64,000 nt of DNA. Source: Acidimicrobiia bacterium (GTDB lineage: Bacteria > Actinomycetota > Acidimicrobiia > IMCC26256 > PALSA-610). Where the stretch lies: NCBI GenBank assembly GCA_036271555.1, contig DATBAK010000008.1, positions 1 through 64,000 on the forward strand. The letters are read 5' to 3'. The notes beneath the pieces are model-generated. The model made no database searches. It had not been told where the DNA came from and worked only from the letters and a program-made list of their open reading frames with translations. Made by a program: the position numbers and the translations under genes. Of this stretch, positions 26,709-53,792 are shown piece after piece (within the stretch, counting starts at the first letter, position 1; each line of letters starts with the position of its first letter).

Positions 26709-26768
26709 CCGGCCCGGCACCGGCGTCGTCTCGGCCGCGGGCGATGGTGGACGTTTCGGGGTGCCGGA

Positions 26769-26774
26769 TAACCT
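26769..26774 (+). promoter_or_regulatory. -10 hexamer TAACCT before acyltransferase copy 1
   Basis: TAACCT is 6 nt before GTG 26781 (TTCGGA between). The same arrangement is duplicated at 28755-28766. Confidence 0.5.
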
Positions 26775-26780
26775 TTCGGA

Positions 26781-28700
26781 GTGGAGGGGGCCGAGCGAGG
26801 CGGTGAAAGGATCGAGCGCGGGGGCGCCAAGATCGCCCACATCTCCGCGCTCGACGGCGCTCGCGGCCTCGCGGTCGCGGGGGTGCTGCTCTTCCACGGC
26901 AACCACTTGCGGGGCGGCTACCTCGGGGTCGACTTCTTCTTCACGCTCTCTGGGTTCCTGATCACGACGCTGTTGCTCGCGGAGTCGAGTCGCAGCGGCG
27001 CCGTGAGCCTGGGCAACTTCTGGGCCCGGCGGGCGCGACGACTGCTGCCCGCGCTCGCGGTGCTGATGGTCGGCGTCGTCGTCTACGCCCAGGTGCTCGC
27101 CAAGCCCGGTGAGCTCTCACAGATCCGCGGCGACGCGTTCGCGACTTTGCTCTACGCGGCGAACTGGCACGAGATCTTCTCGCACACGAGCTACTTCGCG
27201 TTGTTCAGCGCGCCGTCGCCCCTGAACCACACGTGGAGCCTCGCGATCGAAGAGCAGTTCTACGTGATCTGGCCGCTGCTGTTCGTCGTGCTGCTCACGC
27301 GGTTCAAGCGCGCGACGCCGAAGGCGGTGCTGGCGACGTCGCTCGGCCTCGCGACCGTCTCGAGCGTGTTGATGGTGGTGCTCTACGACCCCGCGCACAA
27401 CAACCGCGTGTACTTCGGGACCGACACGCGCGCGGCCGCGATCCTGTTCGGTGCCGCGCTCGCGGCGGCGCTCGCGGCGTACGGACCGCCGACGAGGCGC
27501 AGCGATCGGATCGCACTCGAGATCTCGGGCCTCGCGGGGCTCGCGGTGCTCGCGATCGCGTGGACGCGACTCGACGGGCAGTCGTCGACGCTCTATCGCG
27601 GTGGGTTCCTCGTGTGCGGCCTCGCGGCCACGGCGATCATCGCGACGGCGGTGCATCCCGACCGGATGCTCGTCGCCCGCGCGCTCTCGTTCGGTCCACT
27701 CTGCGGGCTCGGCCTCATCAGCTACGGCGTGTACCTGTACCACTGGCCGATCGACGTCGCGCTCGACGCGCAACGCGCCCATCTGAACGGATGGCCGCTG
27801 TTCGGATTGCAGACCGCCGTCGCGCTCGCCGCCGCGGTGTTGTCGTACCGCTACATCGAGCAGCCGATCCGGCGCGGGCGCGTGAACACCGTGCAGCTCC
27901 GCCGGCTCACGCCCGTGGTCGCGGTCGCGCTCGCGCTCGCGCTCTTTGCCACGACGAGCGGAGCGAGCTCGGCGCCGGCGGTGGCGGCGCCGAACACGCC
28001 GAGCTCGGCGAACCTCATGGTCGAGAGCGCGCTCGTGGCGCGCCAACGAGCGACAGCCGACGCGCCGCGCGTCATGGTCGTCGGGAACTCGGTCGCGTTC
28101 CTGCTCGCGCGCGGCTTCGTCGATCTGCAGGCGACGCCGAAGCCGGTCGTGTTCAACGGCTCCGTGCTCGGATGCATCTTTCCGCCCGAGATCCTGCGGC
28201 CGCCGGCCGAGGTGAACGGCGGCATCGTCGACCTCGCCCCGTGCCATCCGGCATGGGAAGCGCGCGCGGTCGCGGCCTTCCGTCCGACCGTCGTCTACTG
28301 GATCGCGAGCACGCGCGGCGCGATCGGCGGTAAGTACCGCGGGCAGACGATGACCGGCTGCTCACCTCTGTTCGACGAGGTGTACGAGCGCGACCTCCGG
28401 CGCGAGATCGCGCAGCTGGGCCGGTTCGGCGCCAAGGTCGTGATCACGACGTCGGCGTACTCACGCCGCGACGGCGCCGCGAACGATCCTGCACAGGACG
28501 ACTGCGAGAACGCGATGCGGCGGAGCGTCGCGGCGGCGACGGGTTCGCAACTCGTCGACCTGTTCTCATACGTCTGCCCCAAGGGCGAGTGCCGGTCGAA
28601 GATCGACGGTGTCACCCTGCGGTCCGACGGTCTGCACTACGAGGGTGCAGGGGCGGATCTCGTCGCGCGCTGGCTCTACTCGCAGGTGCGCTCGCCGTAA
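26781..28700 (+). CDS. Acyltransferase-3/SGNH fusion, copy 1 (OafA-like)
   Basis: A 639-residue integral membrane O-acyltransferase. Residues 20-390 are an Acyl_transf_3 domain with about ten helices: HISALDGARGLAVAGVLLFH, the catalytic-type motif GGYLGVDFFFTLSGFLITTL and HTWSLAIEEQFYVIWPLL. The C-terminal 210 residues are an extracytoplasmic SGNH domain with the nucleophile block RVMVVGNSVAF (about 430; Asn replaces the usual Asp of GDS) and the RSDGLHY Asp/His block (about 615). Such fusions acetylate surface polysaccharides. Start GTG is leaderless. The neighbour at 28767 is its near-identical tandem copy except in the SGNH part. Confidence 0.9.
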   Translation: MEGAERGGERIERGGAKIAHISALDGARGLAVAGVLLFHGNHLRGGYLGVDFFFTLSGFLITTLLLAESSRSGAVSLGNFWARRARRLLPALAVLMVGVVVYAQVLAKPGELSQIRGDAFATLLYAANWHEIFSHTSYFALFSAPSPLNHTWSLAIEEQFYVIWPLLFVVLLTRFKRATPKAVLATSLGLATVSSVLMVVLYDPAHNNRVYFGTDTRAAAILFGAALAAALAAYGPPTRRSDRIALEISGLAGLAVLAIAWTRLDGQSSTLYRGGFLVCGLAATAIIATAVHPDRMLVARALSFGPLCGLGLISYGVYLYHWPIDVALDAQRAHLNGWPLFGLQTAVALAAAVLSYRYIEQPIRRGRVNTVQLRRLTPVVAVALALALFATTSGASSAPAVAAPNTPSSANLMVESALVARQRATADAPRVMVVGNSVAFLLARGFVDLQATPKPVVFNGSVLGCIFPPEILRPPAEVNGGIVDLAPCHPAWEARAVAAFRPTVVYWIASTRGAIGGKYRGQTMTGCSPLFDEVYERDLRREIAQLGRFGAKVVITTSAYSRRDGAANDPAQDDCENAMRRSVAAATGSQLVDLFSYVCPKGECRSKIDGVTLRSDGLHYEGAGADLVARWLYSQVRSP

Positions 28701-28754
28701 CGCCCGCAGATCCTGCCCGGGCGCGCGCGATGGTGCCGTTTTCGAGGGCGCGGA

Positions 28755-28760
28755 TACCCT
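28755..28760 (+). promoter_or_regulatory. -10 hexamer TACCCT before acyltransferase copy 2
   Basis: TACCCT, then TTCGGA, then GTG 28767. The surrounding 20 nt match the promoter of copy 1, so the duplication carried its promoter. Confidence 0.5.
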
Positions 28761-28766
28761 TTCGGA

Positions 28767-30668
28767 GTGGAGGGGGCCAGGGACGGGGCCGCGAGAATCG
28801 CGCACATCTCGGCGCTCGACGGCGCGCGCGGGATGGCGGTCGCGGGGGTGCTGCTCTTCCATGGCGACCACTTGCGGGGCGGCTATCTCGGCGTGGATTT
28901 CTTCTTCACGCTCTCTGGGTTCCTGATCACGACGCTGTTGCTCGCGGAGTCGAGTCGCAGCGGTGCCGTGAGCCTGGGCAACTTCTGGGCTCGGCGGGCG
29001 CGACGACTGCTGCCCGCGCTCGCGGTGCTGATGGTCGGCGTCGCGATCTACGCGCAGGTGCTCGCCAAGCCCGGTGAGCTCTCACAAATCCGTGGCGACG
29101 CGTTCGCGACGTTGTTCTACTTCGCGAACTGGCACGAGATCTTCTCGCACACCAGCTACTTCACTCTGTTCCTCGCGCCGTCGCCGCTGAACCACACGTG
29201 GAGCCTCGCGATCGAAGAGCAGTTCTACGTGATCTGGCCGCTGCTGTTCGTCGTGCTGCTCACGCGGTTCAAGCGTGCGACGCCGAAGGCGGTGCTGGTC
29301 ACCTCGCTGGCGATGGCGAGCATCTCGAGCGGGTTGATGATCGCCTTGTACAACCCGGCGCACACGAACCGCGTCTATTTCGGGACCGACACGCGCGCGG
29401 CCGCGATCCTGTTCGGTGCCGCGCTCGCGGCGGCACTCGCTGCGTACGGACCGCCGACGCGCCGCAATGATCGGATCGCACTCGAAGCCGTCGGTCTCGT
29501 CGGTGTCGCGGTGCTCGCGGTCGCGTGGACGGGGCTCGACGGGCAATCGGCCGACCTCTATCGCGGTGGCTTCCTCGTCTGCGGCCTCGCGGCGACGGCG
29601 ATCATCGCGACCGCGGTGCATCCCGACCGGATGCTCGTCGCGCGGGCGCTGTCGTTCGGTCCGCTGTGTGGTCTCGGTCTGATCAGCTACGGGCTGTACC
29701 TGTACCACTGGCCGATCGACATCGCGCTCGACGCGCAACGCGCGCACCTGCACGGTTGGCCGCTGTTCGGATTGCAGACCGCGGTCGCGCTCGCCGCCGC
29801 GCTCGTGTCGTACCACTACATCGAGCAGCCGATTCGTCGTGGCCGTGTGAGCGCGCTCCAGCTGCGCCGCTTGTCACCGGCAATCGCGCTCGGGCTCGCG
29901 GTCGCGTTGTTCGTCACGACGGCCGGCACCGGCAGCAGCGCGAGCGCGAGCGGGAGCGGCGCGATCACGGGCAAGTCGGCGCAGCTCGAGCTGCTCGCCG
30001 CGCACCGCGCACGAGCGCTTGCGTCGGCGGACGAGCCCCGCGTGATGATCGCGGGCGACTCGGTCGCCGATCTCCTCGCGCAGACGCTCCAGAGCATGCG
30101 GACCACGCCGCCCGTCGCCGTGTACAACGCGGGATATGCAGGCTGTAACTCGCTGCCGGGCGTGACGGAGAATCGGTCGCGACGTACCGACGGCTCGACC
30201 GTCGTCGAACCGACCGCGCCGTGCGATCCGGCGTGGGAGCTCCCGGCACTGGAGGCGTTCGATCCCGACGTCGTGGTGTGGCTCACGAGCAGCCCGGCCG
30301 ACGACCTGATGCAGCACGGGCACTGGATCTCGACGTGCGGCGCGCGGTACGCGGACGAGTTCCGGCGCGAGCTCACGCGCGTCGTCGGCGTGCTGGGCTC
30401 GCACGGCGCGCATGTCGTGCTCACGACGTCGGCGTACCCGCGGTTCCGGAACGCCGACAACGACGCCGCGGCCGACTGCCAGAACCGGCTGCGGCGCCAG
30501 GTCGCGTCCGCCACCGGCACCAAGCTCGTCGATCTGTTCTCGTACGTCTGCCCGCACGGCAAGTGCCGCACGAAGCAGGACGGCGTGTTCCTCCGCTCGG
30601 ACGGCATCCACTACGCCGGGCCCGGCGGACGGCTCATCGGCGCCTGGCTGCTGAAGCACCTCCGTTGA
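28767..30668 (+). CDS. Acyltransferase-3/SGNH fusion, copy 2 (OafA-like)
   Basis: A 633-residue tandem paralogue of the preceding gene. The membrane acyltransferase half (residues 1-385) is almost identical to copy 1 in protein and DNA. The C-terminal SGNH half is clearly diverged: it keeps the classical nucleophile block VMIAGDSVADLLAQ (about 425) where copy 1 has GNS, adds about ten residues before the Asp/His block, and ends RSDGIHYAGPGG. This suggests the same membrane acyl donor machinery with a different acceptor or esterase specificity. GTG start. Confidence 0.9.
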   Translation: MEGARDGAARIAHISALDGARGMAVAGVLLFHGDHLRGGYLGVDFFFTLSGFLITTLLLAESSRSGAVSLGNFWARRARRLLPALAVLMVGVAIYAQVLAKPGELSQIRGDAFATLFYFANWHEIFSHTSYFTLFLAPSPLNHTWSLAIEEQFYVIWPLLFVVLLTRFKRATPKAVLVTSLAMASISSGLMIALYNPAHTNRVYFGTDTRAAAILFGAALAAALAAYGPPTRRNDRIALEAVGLVGVAVLAVAWTGLDGQSADLYRGGFLVCGLAATAIIATAVHPDRMLVARALSFGPLCGLGLISYGLYLYHWPIDIALDAQRAHLHGWPLFGLQTAVALAAALVSYHYIEQPIRRGRVSALQLRRLSPAIALGLAVALFVTTAGTGSSASASGSGAITGKSAQLELLAAHRARALASADEPRVMIAGDSVADLLAQTLQSMRTTPPVAVYNAGYAGCNSLPGVTENRSRRTDGSTVVEPTAPCDPAWELPALEAFDPDVVVWLTSSPADDLMQHGHWISTCGARYADEFRRELTRVVGVLGSHGAHVVLTTSAYPRFRNADNDAAADCQNRLRRQVASATGTKLVDLFSYVCPHGKCRTKQDGVFLRSDGIHYAGPGGRLIGAWLLKHLR

Positions 30669-30684
30669 CTCCGGACGCGGCGCG

Positions 30685-31491
30685 ATGAAGGTGTGGGTCG
30701 CGACGACCGCGCTCGTGGCGTTCTTCGCTGTGGGTGGCTGGTACATGTGGCACGGCGACACGCCGTACACGCCTCCCGCGCCGACTGCCGCCGCGGTCGA
30801 GAAGGGGGCCGCGGCACGGATCACGGCCGCACGCTCCGCCGCCGAGACCGCGCCCACCGGATCGACGCGGGTGCTCCTCGTGGGGAACTCACTCGCGTAC
30901 TACATCGGCAGCTCGTTCAAGGCGATTCCGTCGGTCGCAGTTCTCGACGCCGCGGTCACCGCGTGCACGTTTCCCCCTCAGATCGTCGGACAGCGAATCG
31001 CGCTCGCCGATGGTGCGTCCCTGTCGCGGGAGCCGTGTGCGCCCGCGTGGGAGTCCGATGTCGTGAGGGCCTTCCACCCGTCGATCGTGTTCTGGCTCGA
31101 CGATGACCCGCCCCGTGGCGGGGGCACCTATCGCGGCAAGCCGATTGCGCCGTGCTCGGCGACCTACGACGCGCTGTACGAACGCGACCTGCGCGCCGAG
31201 ATCGCGAAGCTCGGCGCGACGGGTGCAACGGTCGTCGTGACCACGTCGGCGTACTCGGGTATCGCCGGACACGGCGATGACCGCGCCGACGATTGCCAGA
31301 ACCGCGCGAAGCGCGCGGCCGTGGCGCGGTCGACGGCTCGCCTCGTCGATCTCGCGGCGTTCGTGTGCCCGAGCGGACACTGCGTGACGAAGCGCAACGG
31401 GTTGGTGCTCCGGCCCGACGGTTTCCATTACGAAGGCCCGGGAGGCGAGTTCGTCGCGCGGTGGCTGCTCGGGCAGGTCCGTGGTACCTAG
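30685..31491 (+). CDS. Membrane-anchored SGNH-hydrolase-like protein
   Basis: A 268-residue protein: an N-terminal helix (VATTALVAFFAVGGWYMW), the short outside motif HGDTP, then an SGNH domain homologous to the C-terminal halves of the two acyltransferases 17 nt upstream. Nucleophile block VLLVGNSLAYYIG (about residue 62) and Asp/His block RPDGFHYEGPGG (about 244). Family knowledge suggests transfer or removal of acyl groups on exported glycans. A close paralogue with the same anchor lies at 52977-53792. The downstream gene is convergent. Confidence 0.82.
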   Translation: MKVWVATTALVAFFAVGGWYMWHGDTPYTPPAPTAAAVEKGAAARITAARSAAETAPTGSTRVLLVGNSLAYYIGSSFKAIPSVAVLDAAVTACTFPPQIVGQRIALADGASLSREPCAPAWESDVVRAFHPSIVFWLDDDPPRGGGTYRGKPIAPCSATYDALYERDLRAEIAKLGATGATVVVTTSAYSGIAGHGDDRADDCQNRAKRAAVARSTARLVDLAAFVCPSGHCVTKRNGLVLRPDGFHYEGPGGEFVARWLLGQVRGT

Positions 31492-31492
31492 C

Positions 31493-33544
31493 TCACGACG
31501 AGAGCGGGAAGCACGTGACCTTGTTGCAATACGCCGAGTAGAACGCGTCGAGCAGATGTACATCGACCTGATCGTTGCCGTAGGTGCCGCGGCGGCTGTA
31601 CGGCGGGATCAACGCGAGCTGGAGCAGCTTGCCCTGGTCGAGCGTGGGCGACTGCACAACGCCTTGCCGCAGCAGCTTCTGCACCGTTGGTGACGCGAGC
31701 GCGGCGACGGGGTCGGTCTGCATGCGGCCGAGCGCGCGGGTGAGCGCGAGCGCTTCGAGCGCGGGATAGGCGCGGTCGATTCGTTCGATCGCACCGGGCG
31801 CGAGGACGATCTCCTTGCCCTTCACCTCGCTCGCGAGCTCGTCGAGGAGCTTCGTGCGACGCGCCACGAGATCGTTGAACTCCGCGGTCCGACCGGGTCC
31901 GTACGGTTCCCACAGCAAGAGCGCGCCGGGGCCCGTCGGGGTGCGCGCGAGCTCGCTCGAGACCTGGATCGTCTGGATCTTCTTGGTCCAGTGGTAGCTC
32001 CGCTGCTTGCCGTAGATGGTGTCGGCATCGCTTTGGGGCACCTCGACGCGTACGCCGGCTTGCACGAGGCGGAAGATGAGCTGCGGCGCGAGCGAGAGGG
32101 TGGCGTCGGTGCCGACTTCGGTCACGAGCACCGGAGCGTTGCGGTTGATGTGCGAGAGCACCGCGCGGTCGAGACGGCGCTCGATCGCGAACTCCTTGAC
32201 CTCTCGGTTGTGATCGTCCTTGTCGTTGACGACGACGACGGAACCGGCGATCAGCGCGGACACGACGAGGAGCGCCGGAGCAACGACGCGCCAGGTTCGA
32301 GCGCTCGGCGCGCGCTCGAGCGCGCGTCGGAGCAGCGGCGCGACGGCGATGCCGATCGCAGCCCAGGTGAGCAGGGCTGCGGTCCACGTCCAGCGGTAGA
32401 GGTTGACGCGGCTCGACTCGAAGCTGCGCGGCACGTTGCTGCCGTTGACGGCGCCGGCGACGAGCAGCACCAGCGCGACCCCCGCCAGTCGCGCCAGCGC
32501 GGGGGAACGGCGCCGCTGGCCCACGAGGATCGCACCCAGCACGACGACGACCGCGATCGCGAGGACCGTGCGCAGCGCACCGGCGGAGAAGATGAAGAAG
32601 TTCCCGGTTGTGTCGGTTCGCGTCAGCACGCCGTTCGGCGCGATCGCGTGCACGACCTGGTGCAGGCCGGCCGAGAAGCCCAGCGTCGGCCGCGTGTTGT
32701 CGCGCGCGAAGCGGACGATCGCGGTGAGGTTGCCGGGGTGACCCGTGAACTGTTGAACGAGCACGGGCGACCAGCACACGGCGAAGATCGCGGTCGAGAC
32801 GAGCAACCATGGTCGCAGCGTTCCGCGCGGCGCGGACACGTGCTTGCGTCGGGCTGCAGCGAGCTGCACGACGATCGCGATCAGCATGACGGCAACGAGT
32901 ACGAAGACGAGCAGCGCGTTCGCAAGATGTTGTTGCGCGGCGTAGCTCGCCACGAACGCGGTCAGCGGCAGGAGCCGGAAGTCGCCGTCGATCACCGCCC
33001 ACACGAGCACGGCCGTACACAACAGCGAGTACATGGTCATGTTCGAGCTCAGCGTGTCGACGAGCACCGCAGTGCCGCCCGAGAACATGACCGCGAGGAG
33101 CAACACGCCGGCCCACAACATTGCGTTGAGGCCGAGGCGGCGGAAGAACACCCACGCGGCGATGAGCACGCCCGCCGCGTTGATCGCGGCGGCGGTGAGC
33201 AGCGGCCCCCACGTCATGCCGAGCAGTCGCAACGGGATCGCGAGGAGGTAGAACTCCATCGGACCCGGGTGGTTCGTCGAGATCAGGTCTCCGTAGAGCC
33301 CGGATGTCGACGGCAGGCCGGTGAGCGGCGGATGCCGGCTGAACACGTCGAGCGCACGCGTCGCGATGTTCGCCTCGTCGCCGCTGGGGATCCAGTGGTC
33401 GTGGTAGGAGCGGACGACCGCGACGACGAACGGCACGACGAGCAGGACGAACATCGCGATCGCGAGCTGCCGATCGCGGCCTACGAGATCGCGCAAACGG
33501 CGCGACGGCCGCGCGAACCAATTCGTCTCCGTCAGGTCGTTCAC
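31493..33544 (-). CDS. Polytopic membrane protein, GT-C-like glycosyltransferase
   Basis: A 683-residue protein with about ten or more membrane helices and a C-terminal outside domain of about 230 residues ending YNK-type CNKVTCFPLSS. The first outside loop has HDHWIPSGDEANIATRA, an acidic loop typical of GT-C polyprenyl-phosphate-sugar transferases, and TNHPGPMEFYLLAIPLRLLG, reminiscent of ArnT/PMT-like loops. The sugar cannot be told. The GTG start overlaps the stop of the preceding membrane protein gene (TCAC on the plus strand), so the two are coupled. Confidence 0.72.
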   Translation of the reverse strand: MNDLTETNWFARPSRRLRDLVGRDRQLAIAMFVLLVVPFVVAVVRSYHDHWIPSGDEANIATRALDVFSRHPPLTGLPSTSGLYGDLISTNHPGPMEFYLLAIPLRLLGMTWGPLLTAAAINAAGVLIAAWVFFRRLGLNAMLWAGVLLLAVMFSGGTAVLVDTLSSNMTMYSLLCTAVLVWAVIDGDFRLLPLTAFVASYAAQQHLANALLVFVLVAVMLIAIVVQLAAARRKHVSAPRGTLRPWLLVSTAIFAVCWSPVLVQQFTGHPGNLTAIVRFARDNTRPTLGFSAGLHQVVHAIAPNGVLTRTDTTGNFFIFSAGALRTVLAIAVVVVLGAILVGQRRRSPALARLAGVALVLLVAGAVNGSNVPRSFESSRVNLYRWTWTAALLTWAAIGIAVAPLLRRALERAPSARTWRVVAPALLVVSALIAGSVVVVNDKDDHNREVKEFAIERRLDRAVLSHINRNAPVLVTEVGTDATLSLAPQLIFRLVQAGVRVEVPQSDADTIYGKQRSYHWTKKIQTIQVSSELARTPTGPGALLLWEPYGPGRTAEFNDLVARRTKLLDELASEVKGKEIVLAPGAIERIDRAYPALEALALTRALGRMQTDPVAALASPTVQKLLRQGVVQSPTLDQGKLLQLALIPPYSRRGTYGNDQVDVHLLDAFYSAYCNKVTCFPLSS

Positions 33545-35100
33545 TTGTCAGGTGGAAGGGCGTAGACGGTGACGGATTCCTTGACGTTCTTGAACACGTG
33601 GCGGATGAGCGTGGCCTTGCAGACCGGCTTGTACCGCTGGAAGAGGAAGTACCAGGCGTTGTTCTCGACCTTCTTCTTCGAGAAGTAGCCCGCACGATGC
33701 GTCTCGAAGATGTCGTCGACGGTCAACACCGCGACGCGCGGTGGCCGGTTCTTGAACGTGGTCGCGAGCTCGACGTCGTTGATGATCTTCAGCTGCCGGG
33801 CGCGCTGCGTGGAGACGTCCTCGTAGGAGAACGGGCCGAGCGTGACGTTGGGCACCGGGCGACGGTGCGCCTGCAACACGACCTCTTCGAGCGAGAGCGC
33901 GAAGACCGTGTCGTGAGGCTTCGAGAATTCCTGCACGCAGCGCACGACTTCGTTCAGACCGGCGGGACTGCCGCCCCACCCCGGCGCACCGAGATAGTAC
34001 TGATGCCCGCCGGTGATCGCGGAGATGACGATGCCGACCGCGAGCGCGCCCGACGCGAGCCGTGCGAAGACCCCGCTCGTCGGTCGCGGCACCCTTGATG
34101 CCGCGCGCATGAGCACGATCGTCGACATCACGATCACCGGCGCGGCGACCGGTGCGAAGTACTCCTCGGAGAAGAACTGCGCGGCAGTCTCGTGCAGGAA
34201 GACGAAGAGCACGACGCCGACGACGAGCGCCACGAGATCCAGGCGGCGGCGCAGCGTCGCTCGGATGTCGGCGTTCACGAGCACGGCGACGAGCGCGAGC
34301 GCGCCGAGCAGGAAGGGTCCCGGCCACGAGTGCGCCATCGCGTAGCTCCGCGACCAGTAGCGGCCGATGCCCGCGCTGCCGTGCGAACCGAGGTGGTGAT
34401 AGGCGAGCAGGCCCCACGACGACCGGCTCCACTCGAGCAGCACGAGCACCACGACCGGGAAGATCGCGGCCGCGCTGGCGAGAACGACCCGGACGCGTGT
34501 CCGCTCGTCCGGCGAGAGCACGAGCAGGGCCAGGACCAGCACCACCGCGAGCGCGAAGCCCGTCGACCGGGTCTCGGCGAATCCGACCGCGAGCGCGGCC
34601 GCGACCGGATAGCGCACGCCCGGCGACGTGTTCGACGTGAGCGTGAAGAACACGGCCGACAGGAAGAGGCACGCGAGCGAATAGGTCTTCGTGATCGACA
34701 GCCAGTACGGCAGCGACGGGACCGTCGCCAGGAGGGCTGCGCACGAGACGAGTGCCGTCCACTTCCCGCCGATGCGGCGCGCCGCCGCGATCAGGAGCCC
34801 GATCGACACCGCCGTGCACACGACCGACACCGCCCGCGCGGTGTAGACGTCCGGTAGCAGCCGCACGAAGGGCGCGAGCACGTAGAGGTACGCGGGACCC
34901 TGCGTGAACGCGAAGTCGCGGTAGGGGAGCCGGCCCTGGCTGACGAAGCGCGCGCCGAGCGCATACCAGCCCTCGTCGCCGTTGACGACGCCGAGCCACG
35001 CGAAGACCGCGCCGATCGCAGCCGCGACGATGCCCGCGCCGAGTCCCGCGCGGAGGACTGCGCCGCTGCGCGGCGCGAGCGCTTGTTCCCGCCCCTCCAC
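33541..35100 (-). CDS. Polytopic membrane protein, GT-C/PMT-like glycosyltransferase
   Basis: A 519-residue protein with about ten helices. The first outside loop VVNGDEGWYALGARFVSQG followed by PYRDFAFTQGPAYLYVLAPF is the acidic-loop pattern of GT-C (ArnT/PMT-like) enzymes that use polyprenyl-phosphate sugars. The C-terminal 110 residues are soluble. GTG 35100 is a tentative start: the helical part begins about 15 residues later. It is coupled by 4 nt overlap to the next GT-C gene, and divergent from the AftD-like gene. Confidence 0.72.
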   Translation of the reverse strand: MEGREQALAPRSGAVLRAGLGAGIVAAAIGAVFAWLGVVNGDEGWYALGARFVSQGRLPYRDFAFTQGPAYLYVLAPFVRLLPDVYTARAVSVVCTAVSIGLLIAAARRIGGKWTALVSCAALLATVPSLPYWLSITKTYSLACLFLSAVFFTLTSNTSPGVRYPVAAALAVGFAETRSTGFALAVVLVLALLVLSPDERTRVRVVLASAAAIFPVVVLVLLEWSRSSWGLLAYHHLGSHGSAGIGRYWSRSYAMAHSWPGPFLLGALALVAVLVNADIRATLRRRLDLVALVVGVVLFVFLHETAAQFFSEEYFAPVAAPVIVMSTIVLMRAASRVPRPTSGVFARLASGALAVGIVISAITGGHQYYLGAPGWGGSPAGLNEVVRCVQEFSKPHDTVFALSLEEVVLQAHRRPVPNVTLGPFSYEDVSTQRARQLKIINDVELATTFKNRPPRVAVLTVDDIFETHRAGYFSKKKVENNAWYFLFQRYKPVCKATLIRHVFKNVKESVTVYALPPDK

Positions 35101-35164: not shown

Positions 35165-38100
35165 ATGGCGGGCGGCCGAGCGGGAGCTCGTGAGACGCTC
35201 GCTCGCGGTGCCCCCCGCGTCCGCGACGTTGCTCGCGAGCCGTCCGGCACTGGTGGGGCTCGATGGTGGTTGTTCGCCGTCGTCGCGTACGTGCCGCTCC
35301 TGCTGACCGATCCCGGCAAGGTCGCGTCGGACACGAAGTCGTACCTGTATCTCGATCCGTCGCGCATGCTCGCGGCGGCGCCGTCGATGTGGGATCCGCA
35401 CGTCGGACTGGGCACGGTCACCCACCAGAACGTCGGCTACCTGTTCCCCATGGGGCCGTTCTTCTGGGTCCTCGAGCAGATCCTGAGAATGCCCTCATGG
35501 GTCGCGCAACGGCTCTGGCTCGGCACCTTGCTCTTCGCCGCGGGCATGGGCATGCGGTACCTGCTGAAGACGCTCGGCGTCGCCGGACCCGGCCTGCCCG
35601 TCGCGATGCTCGCCTACGCGTTCACGCCCTACGTCCTCGAGTACTCGGACCGGTTGAGCGTGCTGCTCGGTCCGTGGGCGGCGCTGCCGTGGCTGATCGC
35701 CTTCACCGCGCTCGCGTTGAGAACGCGCGGCTGGCGTTATCCGGCGTTGATCGCGCTGACGGTGCAGCTCGTCGGCGGCGTCAACGCGACCGCGCTGCTG
35801 TACGCGCTCATCGGACCGTTCGTGTACGCGATCTTCGCGGTCGCGGTCACGCGCGAGACCGACCGCCGCCGGCTGTGGTCGGCGCTGTGGCGGACCGCGT
35901 TGCTCACGACGATCACCTCGCTGTGGTGGCTCTCAGGTTTGTTCGTCGAATCGCGTTACGGGCTCGACGTGCTGCGCTTCACGGAGAAGATCACCGACGT
36001 CTCCGCGACCGCGTACCCCTTCGAGATCGTGCGGGGGCTCGGGTACTGGCTGTTCTACGGCCGCAACCCGGTGAACTGGTGGGACCGCGGGCTGCTCGAC
36101 TTCACGCGCGACCCGGTGATCCTGCTCGCGAGCCTGTTGATCCCCACGCTCGCGATGCTCGCGTCGGCGATCGTGCGCTGGCGCTACCGGCTCTATTGCG
36201 TGATCCTCATCGTGCTCGGTGTCGCGATCGCCGTCGGCGCGGCGCCGTACAGCCACCCGTCGATCGTGGGCGGCGCGTTCAAGTCGTTCGCGACGTCGTC
36301 GACGCTCGGGCTCGCGCTGCGGAGCACCTCGCGCGCGACGCCGCTCGTGGCACTCGGCTTCGCGGCGCTGCTCGCCGCGGGCATCAACGCATTCGTCGTA
36401 CGCATGCGCACCACGAGCCGTCCCGGTCTCGGCGTCGGTGTCGCCTTCGTCGTGGGCGCGCTGTGCCTCGTGAACGCGGTCGGCAGCTGGAAGGGCACCT
36501 ACTACACGCCGAACTACGAGCGCGGCGCGGTGCCCGCATACTGGCGCAGCGCGCTGAAGGCCGCGAACGCGGGTCCGCAGGACACGCGTGTGCTCTCCAT
36601 GCCCGGCTCCGGCGAGGCCGCGTACACCTGGGGCAACACGATCGACCCCATCGAGCCGGGACTCATCGACCGTCCCTTCGACGCGCGCGAGCTCGTGCCG
36701 ATGGGTTCGGTCGCGGGCGCGGAGCTCCTGCAGGCACTCGACGGGCGCCTGCAGGACGGCACGCTCGACGCGAACGCGGTCGCGCCGATCGCGCGCCTGA
36801 TGGCGGTCGGCGACGTGTTGTTGCGCAACGACCTGCAAACCGACGCGTTCAACCTCGTGCCCGCCGATGTCGCGTGGCGACTCTTCACCGCCCCGCAACC
36901 GTCGGGTCTGGCGACACCGCAGCACTACGGCACGAAACCCAAGGGCCGCCACATCGCGCCCGCGCTGCCCGACTTCACCGCGGTCCCGTCGTCGAACGAC
37001 ACGCCACCGCCGGTCGCGATCTTCCCGGTCGAGAACCCGCAACCGATCGTGCGCGTACAGGGCGCCGACGCGCCGGTCGTCGTCGCGGGGGATGGTGAAG
37101 GACTCGTCGATCTCGCGTCCGCGGGACTCCTCGACGCTGCGCGACCGATCCTCTACTCCGCGTCCTACGCGAAGCAGCCGAGCGCGTTGCGCGCGCTGCC
37201 CCAGAACGCGGTGCTCGTGCTCACCGACTCGAACCGTCGGCGCGCGCAACGAGGCGGGCTCACCGACGTGTACGGCCTGACCGAGACCGCCGGCGAGAAG
37301 CCGCTCGTGACCGATCCGAGCGATCAGCGCATCGAGGTGTTCCCCGGCGAGACCGACGCGTCGCGCACGGTCGCCGAGATCCCCGGCGTCCGCTCGGTCG
37401 AGGCGACGAGCTACGGCTCGATCTTCGGCTACACGCCGTCGCGCCGACCCGCCAACGCGTTCGACGGCGATCCGTCGACCGCGTGGGTGCCGTCGAACGC
37501 ACGCAAGCAGAAGCTCGTCATCACGCTCGACAAGCCGATCACGACGGACCACGTCGACATCGCACTCACCGCGGGCGCGTCGTACATCGGCGCGGTGACG
37601 CTCCGCTTCGACGGCGCGCACCCGGTGCGCGTGAAACTCGACCCGTCGGCGCAGCAGCTGTCAGGGGAGCGCGCACAGTTCCCGACGCGCCAGTTCTCGA
37701 AGCTCGAGATCGACGTCGACCGCGTGCACAAGGGCCACGGCCTCGCCGCGTTCAATCCGGTCGGCATCTCCGAGGTGCGGATGGGTGACAACGGGCCGGG
37801 GGAGGCTCGGCTCGTGCGTGCCGTCGAGTCGATGCGACTGCCGACCGATCTGCTCGCCGCGCTCGGCACGTCGTCTTCACAGCACCCGCTCGTCGTCGTG
37901 ATGTCGGCTGAGTCGACGATGGATCAGCTCGCGGTGCGCCGCACGTTCACGCTGCCGACCGCGCGCACGTTCTCCGTCTCGGGGAGCGCGGTTCTGTCGG
38001 ACGCCGCCACCGACGGCGCGATCGACGCGATGCTCGGACGGCCGGATGCCGCGCACGGCGGGGTCACGGTGACGGGCTTCGGAGAGCTCGCGAGCCCGGC

Positions 38101-39562
38101 CGGCCGCGCGTTCAACGCGCTCGACGGCGACGCCACGACTGCGTGGAACACGCCCGTCGACCACGTCGACGGCGCACGGATGAGCGTCGCGCTGCCTACG
38201 GCGCGCACGATCGATCATCTCGATCTGAAGCTGCGCGCCGACGGCCGGCATTCGTTGCCGACGCAGTTGCGCATCACCGGCGACGACGGCACGCGAGTGG
38301 TGAAGCTCCCGTCGGCGCCCCTTGTGGCGACGAGCGGTGTCGACTCGGAATCGGTGTCGTTCGCGCCGCTGCACACGCGCCGGCTCAGCGTCACGATCAC
38401 GAGGGCAAAACCGTTCGTGATGCGCAGTAACGACGGTGTGCACCTGTTGCCGGCCGGCGTCGCGGAGCTCGGGATTCCGGGTGTTTCCCTTGCACCCGCG
38501 CCCGCACAACTTCCCGGAACGTGCACGTCGGGACTCGTCACGATCGATGGTCACGAGGTCTCGGTTCGCGTCACCGGCTCCACTGTCGACGCGCTCCAGG
38601 GACGACCGGTCGCGGTCTCGGCGTGCGGTTCCTCCGAGGCGTCCGAGGCGGCCGAGTCGGTCGCGCTCGGCTCGGGATCGCACCAAGTGGTGTCGCTGCG
38701 CAACCGCCACGGCGTCACGAGCTCGACGCCGTTCGATCTTTCGCGCGTGGTGCTCGCGTCGGCGGGCGGCGGTTCGGCCGCGCCGGCGGCGTCGATCATG
38801 ACGGCGCCCGATCGGTCGGTGACCGCGCCGGTGACCGTGCAGCATCAGACGCGCACGTCGATGAAGCTGCTCGTTCCCGCGTCCGACTCTCGCCGTTGGC
38901 TCGTGCTCGGCGAGAGCCTGAACTCGGGGTGGCATGCGACGATCGCCGGCCACGATCTCGGCCCGCCGCAACTCGTCGACGGCTACGCGAACGGTTGGTT
39001 GTTGCCGGCGAGCACCGTCGGGCACGCGGTGACCGTGTCGGTGGTGTGGACTCCGCAGCGGTACGTGTGGATCGCGCTGTGGCTGTCGCTCGTCGGCGGC
39101 ATCGCGTGTCTCGTGATCCTCGGGTGGTCGTTGCTCACCGCGCGCCGACGGGTTGCCGCGGTCGCGCCGGTGCCGAGCGAAGATGCGTCGATCACCGTGC
39201 GCCCGCCGCTGCTCGAGCCCGCGTTGACGAGCGATACGCGGTTGTCCGTCGGTGCGGTCGTCGTCCTCGCGGTGCTCGCCGGCGTCGTCGTGCATCCGTG
39301 GGTCGGACTGCTGGTCGGCGCGCTGACGTATGCCTCGATTCGCGATCGTCGCGCGCGGCTCGTCGTCCGCTACGCGCCGGTCGCGATCGTCGCGTTCATC
39401 GCGCTGTACATGGCGGGCGCGCAGGCGATCGAGCACTACGCCACCGGCACGCACTGGCCGTCGATCTTCTCGTGGGCGCGCGTGCCGATGTGGATCGCGC
39501 TGTTCCTGCTGCTCGTCGACGCGACCGTCGAGTGGCTGTGGCGGCGTACCTCGCCGCCGTAG
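35165..39562 (+). CDS. aftD: AftD-like arabinofuranosyltransferase with two discoidin-type modules
   Basis: A 1465-residue membrane protein of the DUF3367/AftD family. Residues 35-470 hold about 11 helices with the family loop DPGKVASDTKSYLYLDPSRM and GYLFPMGPFFWVLEQI. A long outside part contains two F5/8 type C-like modules, each with an NAFDGD-type core: RRPANAFDGDPSTAWVP (about 757) and GRAFNALDGDATTAWNTP (about 980). Three to five helices close the protein. Mycobacterial AftD adds alpha-1,3-arabinofuranose to arabinan from decaprenyl-phosphoarabinose. Length fits. It may instead use another polyprenyl sugar if this organism lacks arabinogalactan. Confidence 0.85.
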   Translation: MAGGRAGARETLARGAPRVRDVAREPSGTGGARWWLFAVVAYVPLLLTDPGKVASDTKSYLYLDPSRMLAAAPSMWDPHVGLGTVTHQNVGYLFPMGPFFWVLEQILRMPSWVAQRLWLGTLLFAAGMGMRYLLKTLGVAGPGLPVAMLAYAFTPYVLEYSDRLSVLLGPWAALPWLIAFTALALRTRGWRYPALIALTVQLVGGVNATALLYALIGPFVYAIFAVAVTRETDRRRLWSALWRTALLTTITSLWWLSGLFVESRYGLDVLRFTEKITDVSATAYPFEIVRGLGYWLFYGRNPVNWWDRGLLDFTRDPVILLASLLIPTLAMLASAIVRWRYRLYCVILIVLGVAIAVGAAPYSHPSIVGGAFKSFATSSTLGLALRSTSRATPLVALGFAALLAAGINAFVVRMRTTSRPGLGVGVAFVVGALCLVNAVGSWKGTYYTPNYERGAVPAYWRSALKAANAGPQDTRVLSMPGSGEAAYTWGNTIDPIEPGLIDRPFDARELVPMGSVAGAELLQALDGRLQDGTLDANAVAPIARLMAVGDVLLRNDLQTDAFNLVPADVAWRLFTAPQPSGLATPQHYGTKPKGRHIAPALPDFTAVPSSNDTPPPVAIFPVENPQPIVRVQGADAPVVVAGDGEGLVDLASAGLLDAARPILYSASYAKQPSALRALPQNAVLVLTDSNRRRAQRGGLTDVYGLTETAGEKPLVTDPSDQRIEVFPGETDASRTVAEIPGVRSVEATSYGSIFGYTPSRRPANAFDGDPSTAWVPSNARKQKLVITLDKPITTDHVDIALTAGASYIGAVTLRFDGAHPVRVKLDPSAQQLSGERAQFPTRQFSKLEIDVDRVHKGHGLAAFNPVGISEVRMGDNGPGEARLVRAVESMRLPTDLLAALGTSSSQHPLVVVMSAESTMDQLAVRRTFTLPTARTFSVSGSAVLSDAATDGAIDAMLGRPDAAHGGVTVTGFGELASPAGRAFNALDGDATTAWNTPVDHVDGARMSVALPTARTIDHLDLKLRADGRHSLPTQLRITGDDGTRVVKLPSAPLVATSGVDSESVSFAPLHTRRLSVTITRAKPFVMRSNDGVHLLPAGVAELGIPGVSLAPAPAQLPGTCTSGLVTIDGHEVSVRVTGSTVDALQGRPVAVSACGSSEASEAAESVALGSGSHQVVSLRNRHGVTSSTPFDLSRVVLASAGGGSAAPAASIMTAPDRSVTAPVTVQHQTRTSMKLLVPASDSRRWLVLGESLNSGWHATIAGHDLGPPQLVDGYANGWLLPASTVGHAVTVSVVWTPQRYVWIALWLSLVGGIACLVILGWSLLTARRRVAAVAPVPSEDASITVRPPLLEPALTSDTRLSVGAVVVLAVLAGVVVHPWVGLLVGALTYASIRDRRARLVVRYAPVAIVAFIALYMAGAQAIEHYATGTHWPSIFSWARVPMWIALFLLLVDATVEWLWRRTSPP

Positions 39563-51735: not shown

Positions 51736-52596
51736 ATGACGCCGCCGGCCCGTCGCGACGCCGAGACCCTCGCGGTCGTCGCGTTCCTCGACAGCTGCCG
51801 ATCGATGAACACCCGTTCGGCGTACCGCAGCGATCTCGGTCATCTCGCCGCGTGGTGTCACGAGCACGGCTCGCTCGAGCTGCTCGGGCTCACGACCGAA
51901 GACCTCGCGCGCTACCGCGCCGCCTGCGAGGGAAGTGGCGCGAGCTCGGGCACGGTGGCCCGCCGGCTCTCTGCAGTCTCGTCCTTCAGTACCTTCGCGC
52001 GCGGCGGCGAGGCCGCGTCGCTCGCGATGCCGCAGCGAACGGTGCGACCCTGCCGACCCACCATTGACGCGCACACCACGACCGAGCTGCTCGACGACGA
52101 CGACGCCCGCGCGTTGCTCGACGCGGCCGACGGGCTCAGTGATCGAACGTCGTCGGTGATCCGACTCCTGATGCTCGACGGTCTCAAGGTCGGCGAGCTC
52201 ACGCGCACGAACGTCGGCGACGTCGCGTTCGCGCGCCGGTCGGCGCAGCTCGAGATCCGCGACGCGCGTCACGCGCGGCGGCTCGAGTTGCACGCGACGA
52301 CGGTCAACCGGTTGCGTCGGTATGTCGGCGTGCGCCGACGCGGCCCGCTCGTCCGGAGCGAGCAGCGCGGCAACGAGACGCAACGCATCAGCCGCTTCGG
52401 CGTCGATTTCATCATCAAACAGACGGCGGTGTCGGCGGGCCTGACGCAGAGCATCTCCGCGAACGTATTGCGCCGCCGCTACGTCGTCGCCGCGCATGCG
52501 CGCGGAAGCGATCTCGAAGCGATCCGGTACCGCGTCGGACACCAGCAGTCCCGCACTACCCGCCGCTACCTCGACTCCGATGTCGAACCTGACTGA
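51736..52596 (+). CDS. Tyrosine recombinase-like protein with altered catalytic residues
   Basis: A 286-residue XerC/D-like protein. The N-terminal SAM-like domain has MNTRSAYRSDLGHLAAWCHE. The catalytic domain keeps the fold, but the first Arg (usually in GLRxSEL) is Lys in MLDGLKVGEL (about 153), and the HxLR His is Asn in NVLRRRYVVAAHARG (about 242). The second Arg, the later His (RVGHQQSRTTRRY) and the Tyr are present. Loss of two of six residues suggests a DNA-binding protein or a very weak recombinase. ATG 51736. A STAS gene follows 19 nt after. Confidence 0.75.
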   Translation: MTPPARRDAETLAVVAFLDSCRSMNTRSAYRSDLGHLAAWCHEHGSLELLGLTTEDLARYRAACEGSGASSGTVARRLSAVSSFSTFARGGEAASLAMPQRTVRPCRPTIDAHTTTELLDDDDARALLDAADGLSDRTSSVIRLLMLDGLKVGELTRTNVGDVAFARRSAQLEIRDARHARRLELHATTVNRLRRYVGVRRRGPLVRSEQRGNETQRISRFGVDFIIKQTAVSAGLTQSISANVLRRRYVVAAHARGSDLEAIRYRVGHQQSRTTRRYLDSDVEPD

Positions 52597-52976: not shown

Positions 52977-53792
52977 TCAGCGGATCTGGTCGAAGATCCA
53001 GCGCGCCGCGAGCGTGCCGCCCGCGCCGGAGTAGTGCAGTCCGTCGGGTCGCAACGTGACGCCGTTCGTTCGCACGATGCATTCGCCGTTCGGGCACGTG
53101 TAACCGAACAGATCCACGATCGTGGAGTGCGTCTTCGTCGCGACCGCGCGTCGAAGTCGGTTGTTGCAGTCGACCGTGCGATCGGGGAGCGACGCGGCGC
53201 CCAGCCCGCCGCCGGGCACGACGAACCGCACGTACGCCTCGGTCGTGAGGACGACGGACGCGCCCGTCGAGCGCAGGCGCGTGATCTCGTGCTCGAGGCT
53301 CGATTCGTAGATCGAGTCGTACGGCTGCGAGCACGCGTGCAGCGCCTTCCCGTTCGAGCTCCACGGCTCGGGCGGATCGCTCACGAGCCAGAGCACGATC
53401 TTCGGCCGGAAGGCCTCGAGCTCGGCCGACTCGCCGCTCGGGTGACACGGCCGCTCCGCGATCTCGGCGCGGGTCGCCGGGTTGCGGTAGGTCGCGGTGA
53501 CCGACGGCGGGAACGCGCACGCGACGACCGCGGCGTCGAAGGTGTTCGCACCGGGCAACGCCTTGAACGCGGGCGCGAGCTCGTACGCGAGGGAGTTGCC
53601 GACGAGCATGATCCGCGTCGCGTCGGGAGCGCCGTTCACGCGTGCGTCGGTGGCGGCCTGCACCGCCACATTGGGAACGGTGACGGGTGTCGGCGTCGCC
53701 GTCGGGTTGGTGGGCGTGTCGCCGTGCCAGAAGTACCAGCCGCCGACGGCGAAGAACGCGACGAGCGCGGCGGTCGCGGCCCAGGCCTTCAT
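52977..53792 (-). CDS. Membrane-anchored SGNH-hydrolase-like protein (paralogue of 30685)
   Basis: A 271-residue paralogue of the protein at 30685-31491. Both start MKxWxATxALVAFFAVGGWY and continue WHGDTP. The SGNH blocks are IMLVGNSLAYELAPAF (about residue 63) and RPDGLHYSGAGG (about 250), and cysteines in VVACAFPP, LHACSQ, TVDCNNRL and YTCPNGEC match those of all four SGNH proteins in the window. Acyl-ester chemistry on an exported glycan is inferred. It lies 22 kb away from the cluster with no related neighbour, so the copy was dispersed. ATG 53792. Confidence 0.82.
   Translation of the reverse strand: MKAWAATAALVAFFAVGGWYFWHGDTPTNPTATPTPVTVPNVAVQAATDARVNGAPDATRIMLVGNSLAYELAPAFKALPGANTFDAAVVACAFPPSVTATYRNPATRAEIAERPCHPSGESAELEAFRPKIVLWLVSDPPEPWSSNGKALHACSQPYDSIYESSLEHEITRLRSTGASVVLTTEAYVRFVVPGGGLGAASLPDRTVDCNNRLRRAVATKTHSTIVDLFGYTCPNGECIVRTNGVTLRPDGLHYSGAGGTLAARWIFDQIR

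Follow-up and report, generated by a model that had tools for sequence, protein, structure and literature searches.

Organization of the locus

The window analysed here, i.e. the whole stretch of 64,000 nucleotides, lies on contig C8 of a MAG of an Acidimicrobiia bacterium (4.68 Mb, 104 contigs) and carries four genes encoding SGNH domains, hereafter A to D. A (26781..28700, forward strand) and B (28767..30668, forward strand) encode fusions of an AT3 domain with a C-terminal SGNH domain, both domains exceeding the Pfam cut-offs (31 bits for PF01757 and 27 bits for PF19040): A matches PF01757 with 80.2 bits and PF19040 with 35.3 bits, B with 79.1 and 40.4 bits, and B displays an additional weak DUF459 match. 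Within A, the AT3 part spans about 26838-27900, the 11th helix about 27900-27960 and the SGNH part about 28060-28700. C (30685..31491, forward strand), starting after a gap of 16 nt from the end of B, encodes a stand-alone SGNH protein with one N-terminal membrane helix, and D (52977..53792, reverse strand) encodes another with the same N-terminal helix. PF19040 matches D with 29.3 bits and C with 20.2 bits, the latter below the cut-off. Open reading frames and Pfam matches thus reproduce the arrangement given in the initial annotation, i.e. two fusions and one anchored SGNH protein in tandem and a fourth gene apart, and PF19040 relates the four modules to each other, C through a match below cut-off, as that annotation had read from the sequence.

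Downstream of C are found two genes for membrane proteins, a large possible GT-C (31493..33544, reverse strand; PF25592, 25.2 bits for a cut-off of 31) and a possible PMT-type GT-C (33541..35100, reverse strand; PF13231, 23.5 bits for a cut-off of 26.1), followed by a gene for a homologue of AftD-like arabinofuranosyltransferases with carbohydrate-binding modules (35270..39562, forward strand; PF11847, 295.7 bits; PF24607, 65.2 bits). These three genes serve as context only. The two GT-C proteins and the AftD-like protein were already proposed from the letters; judged by its profile matches the AftD-like assignment is firm, whereas the GT-C matches remain below cut-off and both genes run on the opposite strand, convergent with A-B-C, which rules out a common operon.

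The GTG start of A lies 6 nt past a TAACCT box (TANNNT at -12; 26769-26781) and that of B 6 nt past a TACCCT box (28755-28767). Such a TANNNT box precedes the GTG or ATG start by 11-14 nt in 7 of the 9 AT3-SGNH genes of the host, as seen in the window and at the loci L061, L063, L065 and L066, versus 35 of 238 called genes in general. This looks like leaderless transcription of each AT3-SGNH gene from its own promoter.

Conserved residues of the SGNH domains

Alignment of the four SGNH domains revealed an invariant Ser block, an invariant D-G-x-H-Y motif and six invariant cysteines (C447, C470, C509, C557, C581 and C586 in A), in line with the shared blocks and cysteines first recognised by eye, while pairwise identities of 39-46% agree with the wide divergence reported together with them. 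R10, H21, S419, D598 and H601, i.e. the R-x10-H of helix 1 and the Ser/Asp/His triad residues of the SGNH domain, are the same in 15/15 aligned fusions, and neither the R-x10-H nor the Ser block nor DxxH varies across paralogues and relatives.

GNS is found in A, C and D and GDS in B, as initially noted for three of the four proteins. This is no peculiarity of the locus: GNS occurs in 14/56 related SGNH domains and the host's own clade contains both states, which rules out GNS as a special catalytic change. In another Actinomycetota MAG (L148, 10159-14047, reverse strand), two tandem AT3-SGNH proteins, adjoined by an intact copy, have neither the catalytic Ser (GDE, GDA) nor the His (NGVN, DGFN); their SGNH heads, although joined to AT3 as before, are apparently dead.

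Expansion of the family and origin of the stand-alone heads

The family is larger than the four genes initially annotated. The host genome encodes 18 AT3 domains, at least nine of them with an SGNH domain (A, B, three on contig C61 and one each on C87, C19, C12 and C85), and at least five stand-alone SGNH proteins, namely C, D, two encoded in tandem on contig C1 (C1a and C1b) and, less closely related, one on C30. A tree built from 56 SGNH domains unites ten of the host (A, B, C, D, the three of C61, that of C87 and the two of C1) in one clade with a support of 98/96, indicating that the AT3-SGNH family has expanded within the host lineage. C groups with D and C1a (95/88), the last two being sisters (100/99). 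Since the C, D and C1 heads nest inside the AT3-fused clade, the stand-alone heads arose there, the simplest route being that the AT3 part was lost. Four relatives (G034, G007, G008 and G011) also have anchored SGNH genes of the stand-alone type, and in another genome (G023; L080, 8234-10138) an in-frame stop separates the AT3 part of an AT3-SGNH gene from the part encoding helix 11 and the SGNH domain, which may represent a step on the way to detachment of the head.

A tyrosine recombinase gene (51736-52596) lies at a distance of about 0.4 kb from D, and an N-terminal fragment of a phage integrase (L067, 12803-13150) about 2 kb from the C1 heads; mobile elements may have relocated the stand-alone heads. 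A single-protein scan with D found no relative in the genome collection, which includes no close species, and an alignment-based scan recovered distant named relatives only.

Separate histories of the AT3 and SGNH halves of A and B

A and B share 90% amino-acid identity in their AT3 halves and 46% in their SGNH halves. At the DNA level, their identity per 60 nt is 0.75-1.00 from the promoter box onwards and drops to 0.5-0.6 near 27,910-27,960; this profile and an upstream alignment delimit a nearly identical tract in A (26735..27940, forward strand), comprising the promoter box, the AT3 part and the start of helix 11, and the matching tract in B (28725..29905, forward strand). Counted only where the amino acid is unchanged, 4-fold sites are identical at 162/203 positions (0.80) in AT3 versus 35/69 (0.51) in SGNH (Fisher p 8e-6), with 0.47 expected by chance from codon usage alone: the synonymous sites are saturated in the SGNH halves and unsaturated in the AT3 halves. 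In orthologous fusions of other species, the two halves have diverged to the same extent (4-fold identity of AT3/SGNH 0.785/0.790, p 1.0, and 0.709/0.702, p 0.9), so the synonymous sites of AT3 are under no intrinsic constraint, and orthologues with 90% AT3 identity still have 91-95% identical SGNH parts. The contrast between the halves of A and B, which the initial annotation had not described, is thus far outside the orthologue range.

The trees of the two domains also disagree. A and B group together in the AT3 tree (100/100), while in the SGNH tree B stands beside C61b and A falls with C61a, C61c and the stand-alone heads. AU tests reject an A+B clade for SGNH (p-AU 0.027, a value reflecting the modest resolution inside the host's own SGNH clade) and a B+C61b clade for AT3 (p-AU 6e-5). 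The synonymous-site contrast, together with these trees, supports well that the AT3 and SGNH halves of A and B had separate histories, probably through gene conversion or module exchange, and gives substance to the early reading of SGNH modules on shared or swapped membrane anchors.

A plain tandem duplication followed by fast divergence of the SGNH proteins under relaxed or diversifying selection would require no recombination and could draw on the generally lower conservation of SGNH halves, the mean SGNH identity being 0.40 among fusions with an AT3 identity of 0.6-0.7. It is nevertheless improbable, as selection at the protein level does not saturate the synonymous sites of one half alone, and the orthologous pairs lack any such difference. 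Between the two forms of separate history, the evidence leans towards conversion of the AT3 tract over exchange of an SGNH part, because A and B have SGNH halves that seem similar in age to those of other paralogues. By bootstrap, the excess of A-B identity over that of A or B with other paralogues is 0.00-0.10 for SGNH and 0.19-0.26 for AT3, again in line with separate histories. The host genome offers no donor for the SGNH half of B (at best 45-46% identity to A and 41% to C61b), so that either direction of exchange may apply. Other paralogue pairs of the host display the same synonymous contrast weakly (p about 0.08 for the C61 pairs), so that one clear exchange is documented rather than a general process. 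Our literature search found no paper on gene conversion in AT3-SGNH genes.

Anchor, fold and possible partners of C and D

The N-terminal anchor of C (27 aa; 30685..30765, forward strand) is identical to that of D (27 aa; 53712..53792, reverse strand) at 23/27 positions (E 4.3e-13), in agreement with the repeated anchor first noticed in the translations. Its consensus is MKxWxATxALVAFFAVGGWYxWHGDTP, and its identity of 85% compares with 46% for the SGNH parts of the same two proteins. A third copy is found in C1b (17/27 identical to both C and D), and the anchor of C1a, whose SGNH domain is sister to that of D, is another one. The 4-fold identity of the C and D anchors, 7/13, is near saturation; what has been kept seems to be the amino-acid sequence and not the DNA, though 13 sites are a weak basis. 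Since a plain signal anchor is not expected to be better conserved than the catalytic domain that it holds, the anchor of C, D and C1b might replace helix 11 and dock varied SGNH heads on a common AT3 protein, with AT3 halves kept uniform by conversion. We regard this proposal as speculative and rather unlikely; if true, a single donor machine would serve changing acceptor specificities.

In the AlphaFold model of D (pLDDT 85.8, pTM 0.79), a helix at residues 3-22 and a second, short one precede an SGNH domain, giving D the anchored SGNH fold of a PatB-type protein. Although a sequence search of the PDB gave no match, the fold search placed first PatB of Campylobacter (8tlb, Z 19.2 over 192 residues, 15% identity) and PatB of Neisseria (Z 18.2), followed by sialate and xylan acetylesterases, OatA (6vjp, Z 15.0) and OafB (Z 14.8). 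Neither C nor D is linked to an MBOAT partner gene: the sole MBOAT gene found in the host genome lies on C54, with its own SGNH gene adjoining, which makes AT3 proteins the likelier partners. By analogy with PatB, C and D are most likely acylated in trans by an AT3 protein, either A, B or an AT3-only protein.

Partnership with an MBOAT protein of the PatA/AlgI type would fit the best fold match, as PatB works with the MBOAT PatA, and AT3 and MBOAT partners can be swapped, the AT3 protein WecH being able to replace PatA (PMC7448272). With the single MBOAT gene already adjoined by an SGNH gene, we judge it very improbable for C and D. That C and D are instead anchored carbohydrate esterases, removing the acyl groups added by A and B, is unlikely but deserves more weight: the SGNH fold is also that of esterases, which make up much of the list of PDB matches, while the leading matches are PatB transferases and both proteins nest within the AT3-fused SGNH clade. 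Acylation in trans by an AT3 protein remains our preferred reading for C and D.

Glycan setting

The link with glycan genes proposed in the initial annotation was surveyed in related genomes. Within 10 kb of an AftD-like gene, 12 of 101 PF19040-type places were found, in 10 genomes, where at most 1.2 were expected; this is about tenfold above expectation (Poisson P 8e-9, the places not being fully independent). On contig C61 of the host, four AT3-only and three AT3-SGNH genes are located among GT87, PMT_2, GT2 and polysaccharide deacetylase genes. The four AT3-only genes are consecutive (L061, 5450-10468), about 400 aa each, and upstream of the three AT3-SGNH genes. In a genome of the same order as the host (G030; L078, 5439-13767), four AT3-SGNH genes, two of which have shortened SGNH parts, adjoin two AftD-like genes. 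Stand-alone SGNH genes occurring apart from AT3 and glycan genes in relatives had been named as an observation that would speak against the link, and part of this is seen in the host itself, as neither D nor the C1 copies have genes for AT3 or glycosyltransferases as neighbours. The recurrent co-location with AftD-like genes and the C61 block support the glycan setting, and the family likely acylates a glycan of the envelope.

A and B could be arabinan succinyltransferases, counterparts of SucT (Rv1565c), which is required for mycobacterial arabinan succinylation (PMC10503756): SucT is their nearest NCBIfam model and an AftD-like gene lies close by. The scores of 99.5 and 105.5 bits are far under the equivalog cut-off of 1275 (NF058601), the match covers the AT3 part only and two AT3-SGNH proteins from mycobacteria have SGNH halves of another clade, so that we give this identity little credence. 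The literature searched held nothing on point about AftD or arabinogalactan in Acidimicrobiia.

Proposed mechanism

In the Salmonella acetyltransferases OafA and OafB, the AT3 domain carries the acyl group across the membrane, the SGNH domain performs the last transfer and the SGNH extension constrains the acceptor (PMC7448272). Similarly, in A and B, the AT3 half would accept an acyl group from a donor in the cytoplasm, move it through the membrane and deliver it to the SGNH half outside; with its Ser-His-Asp triad, the latter would then acylate a hydroxyl of a glycan in the envelope. C and D, which are heads of the same clade fixed by a single helix, would be supplied with the acyl group in trans, in a PatB-like manner, by an AT3 protein. 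The AT3 halves of A and B would have been homogenised by gene conversion, or one SGNH half exchanged, with the SGNH heads remaining distinct. Divergent heads on a uniform AT3 could mean that one donor machine was kept and the acceptor varied, possibly resulting in several acyl patterns on one polysaccharide. We consider this account as a whole, i.e. AT3-SGNH acyltransferases with in-trans heads, a lineage expansion and halves of separate histories, to be reasonably probable. Exchanged halves and detached heads suggest a mix-and-match diversification of surface decoration.

Why some AT3 proteins have a fused SGNH domain and others seem to need none, or another partner, is an open question (PMC9558356, PMC9833829). 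With fused and detached heads of one clade and halves of separate histories, this genome offers natural material for asking which half determines the acceptor and if heads can be served in trans.

Comparison with known systems

The Gram-positive OatA and OatB, which act on peptidoglycan, resemble A and B as AT3-SGNH fusions, and the OatA fold also matches that of D; we know of no detached heads of the same clade for them. SucT represents the nearest curated family for the AT3 part of A and B, close to which lies an AftD-like gene of the arabinan type, but its family cut-off is far from reached and the SGNH half belongs to a different clade. PatB (peptidoglycan O-acetyltransferase B) is, like D, a stand-alone anchored SGNH protein and its best fold match; unlike PatB, D is nested by sequence in an AT3-fused clade, has no adjacent MBOAT partner and carries a conserved 27-residue anchor. 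OafA and OafB (PF01757 and PF19040) share with A and B the domain order, a helix 11 between the domains, the R-x10-H in helix 1, the Ser and DxxH triad residues and the lack of an obvious GxND block. A and B differ from them by their actinobacterial SGNH clade, six common cysteines, multi-copy occurrence and AT3 and SGNH halves of different age. The proteins of this locus are thus enzymes of a known kind, set apart as a variant by the mosaic structure of A and B and the conserved anchor of the detached heads.
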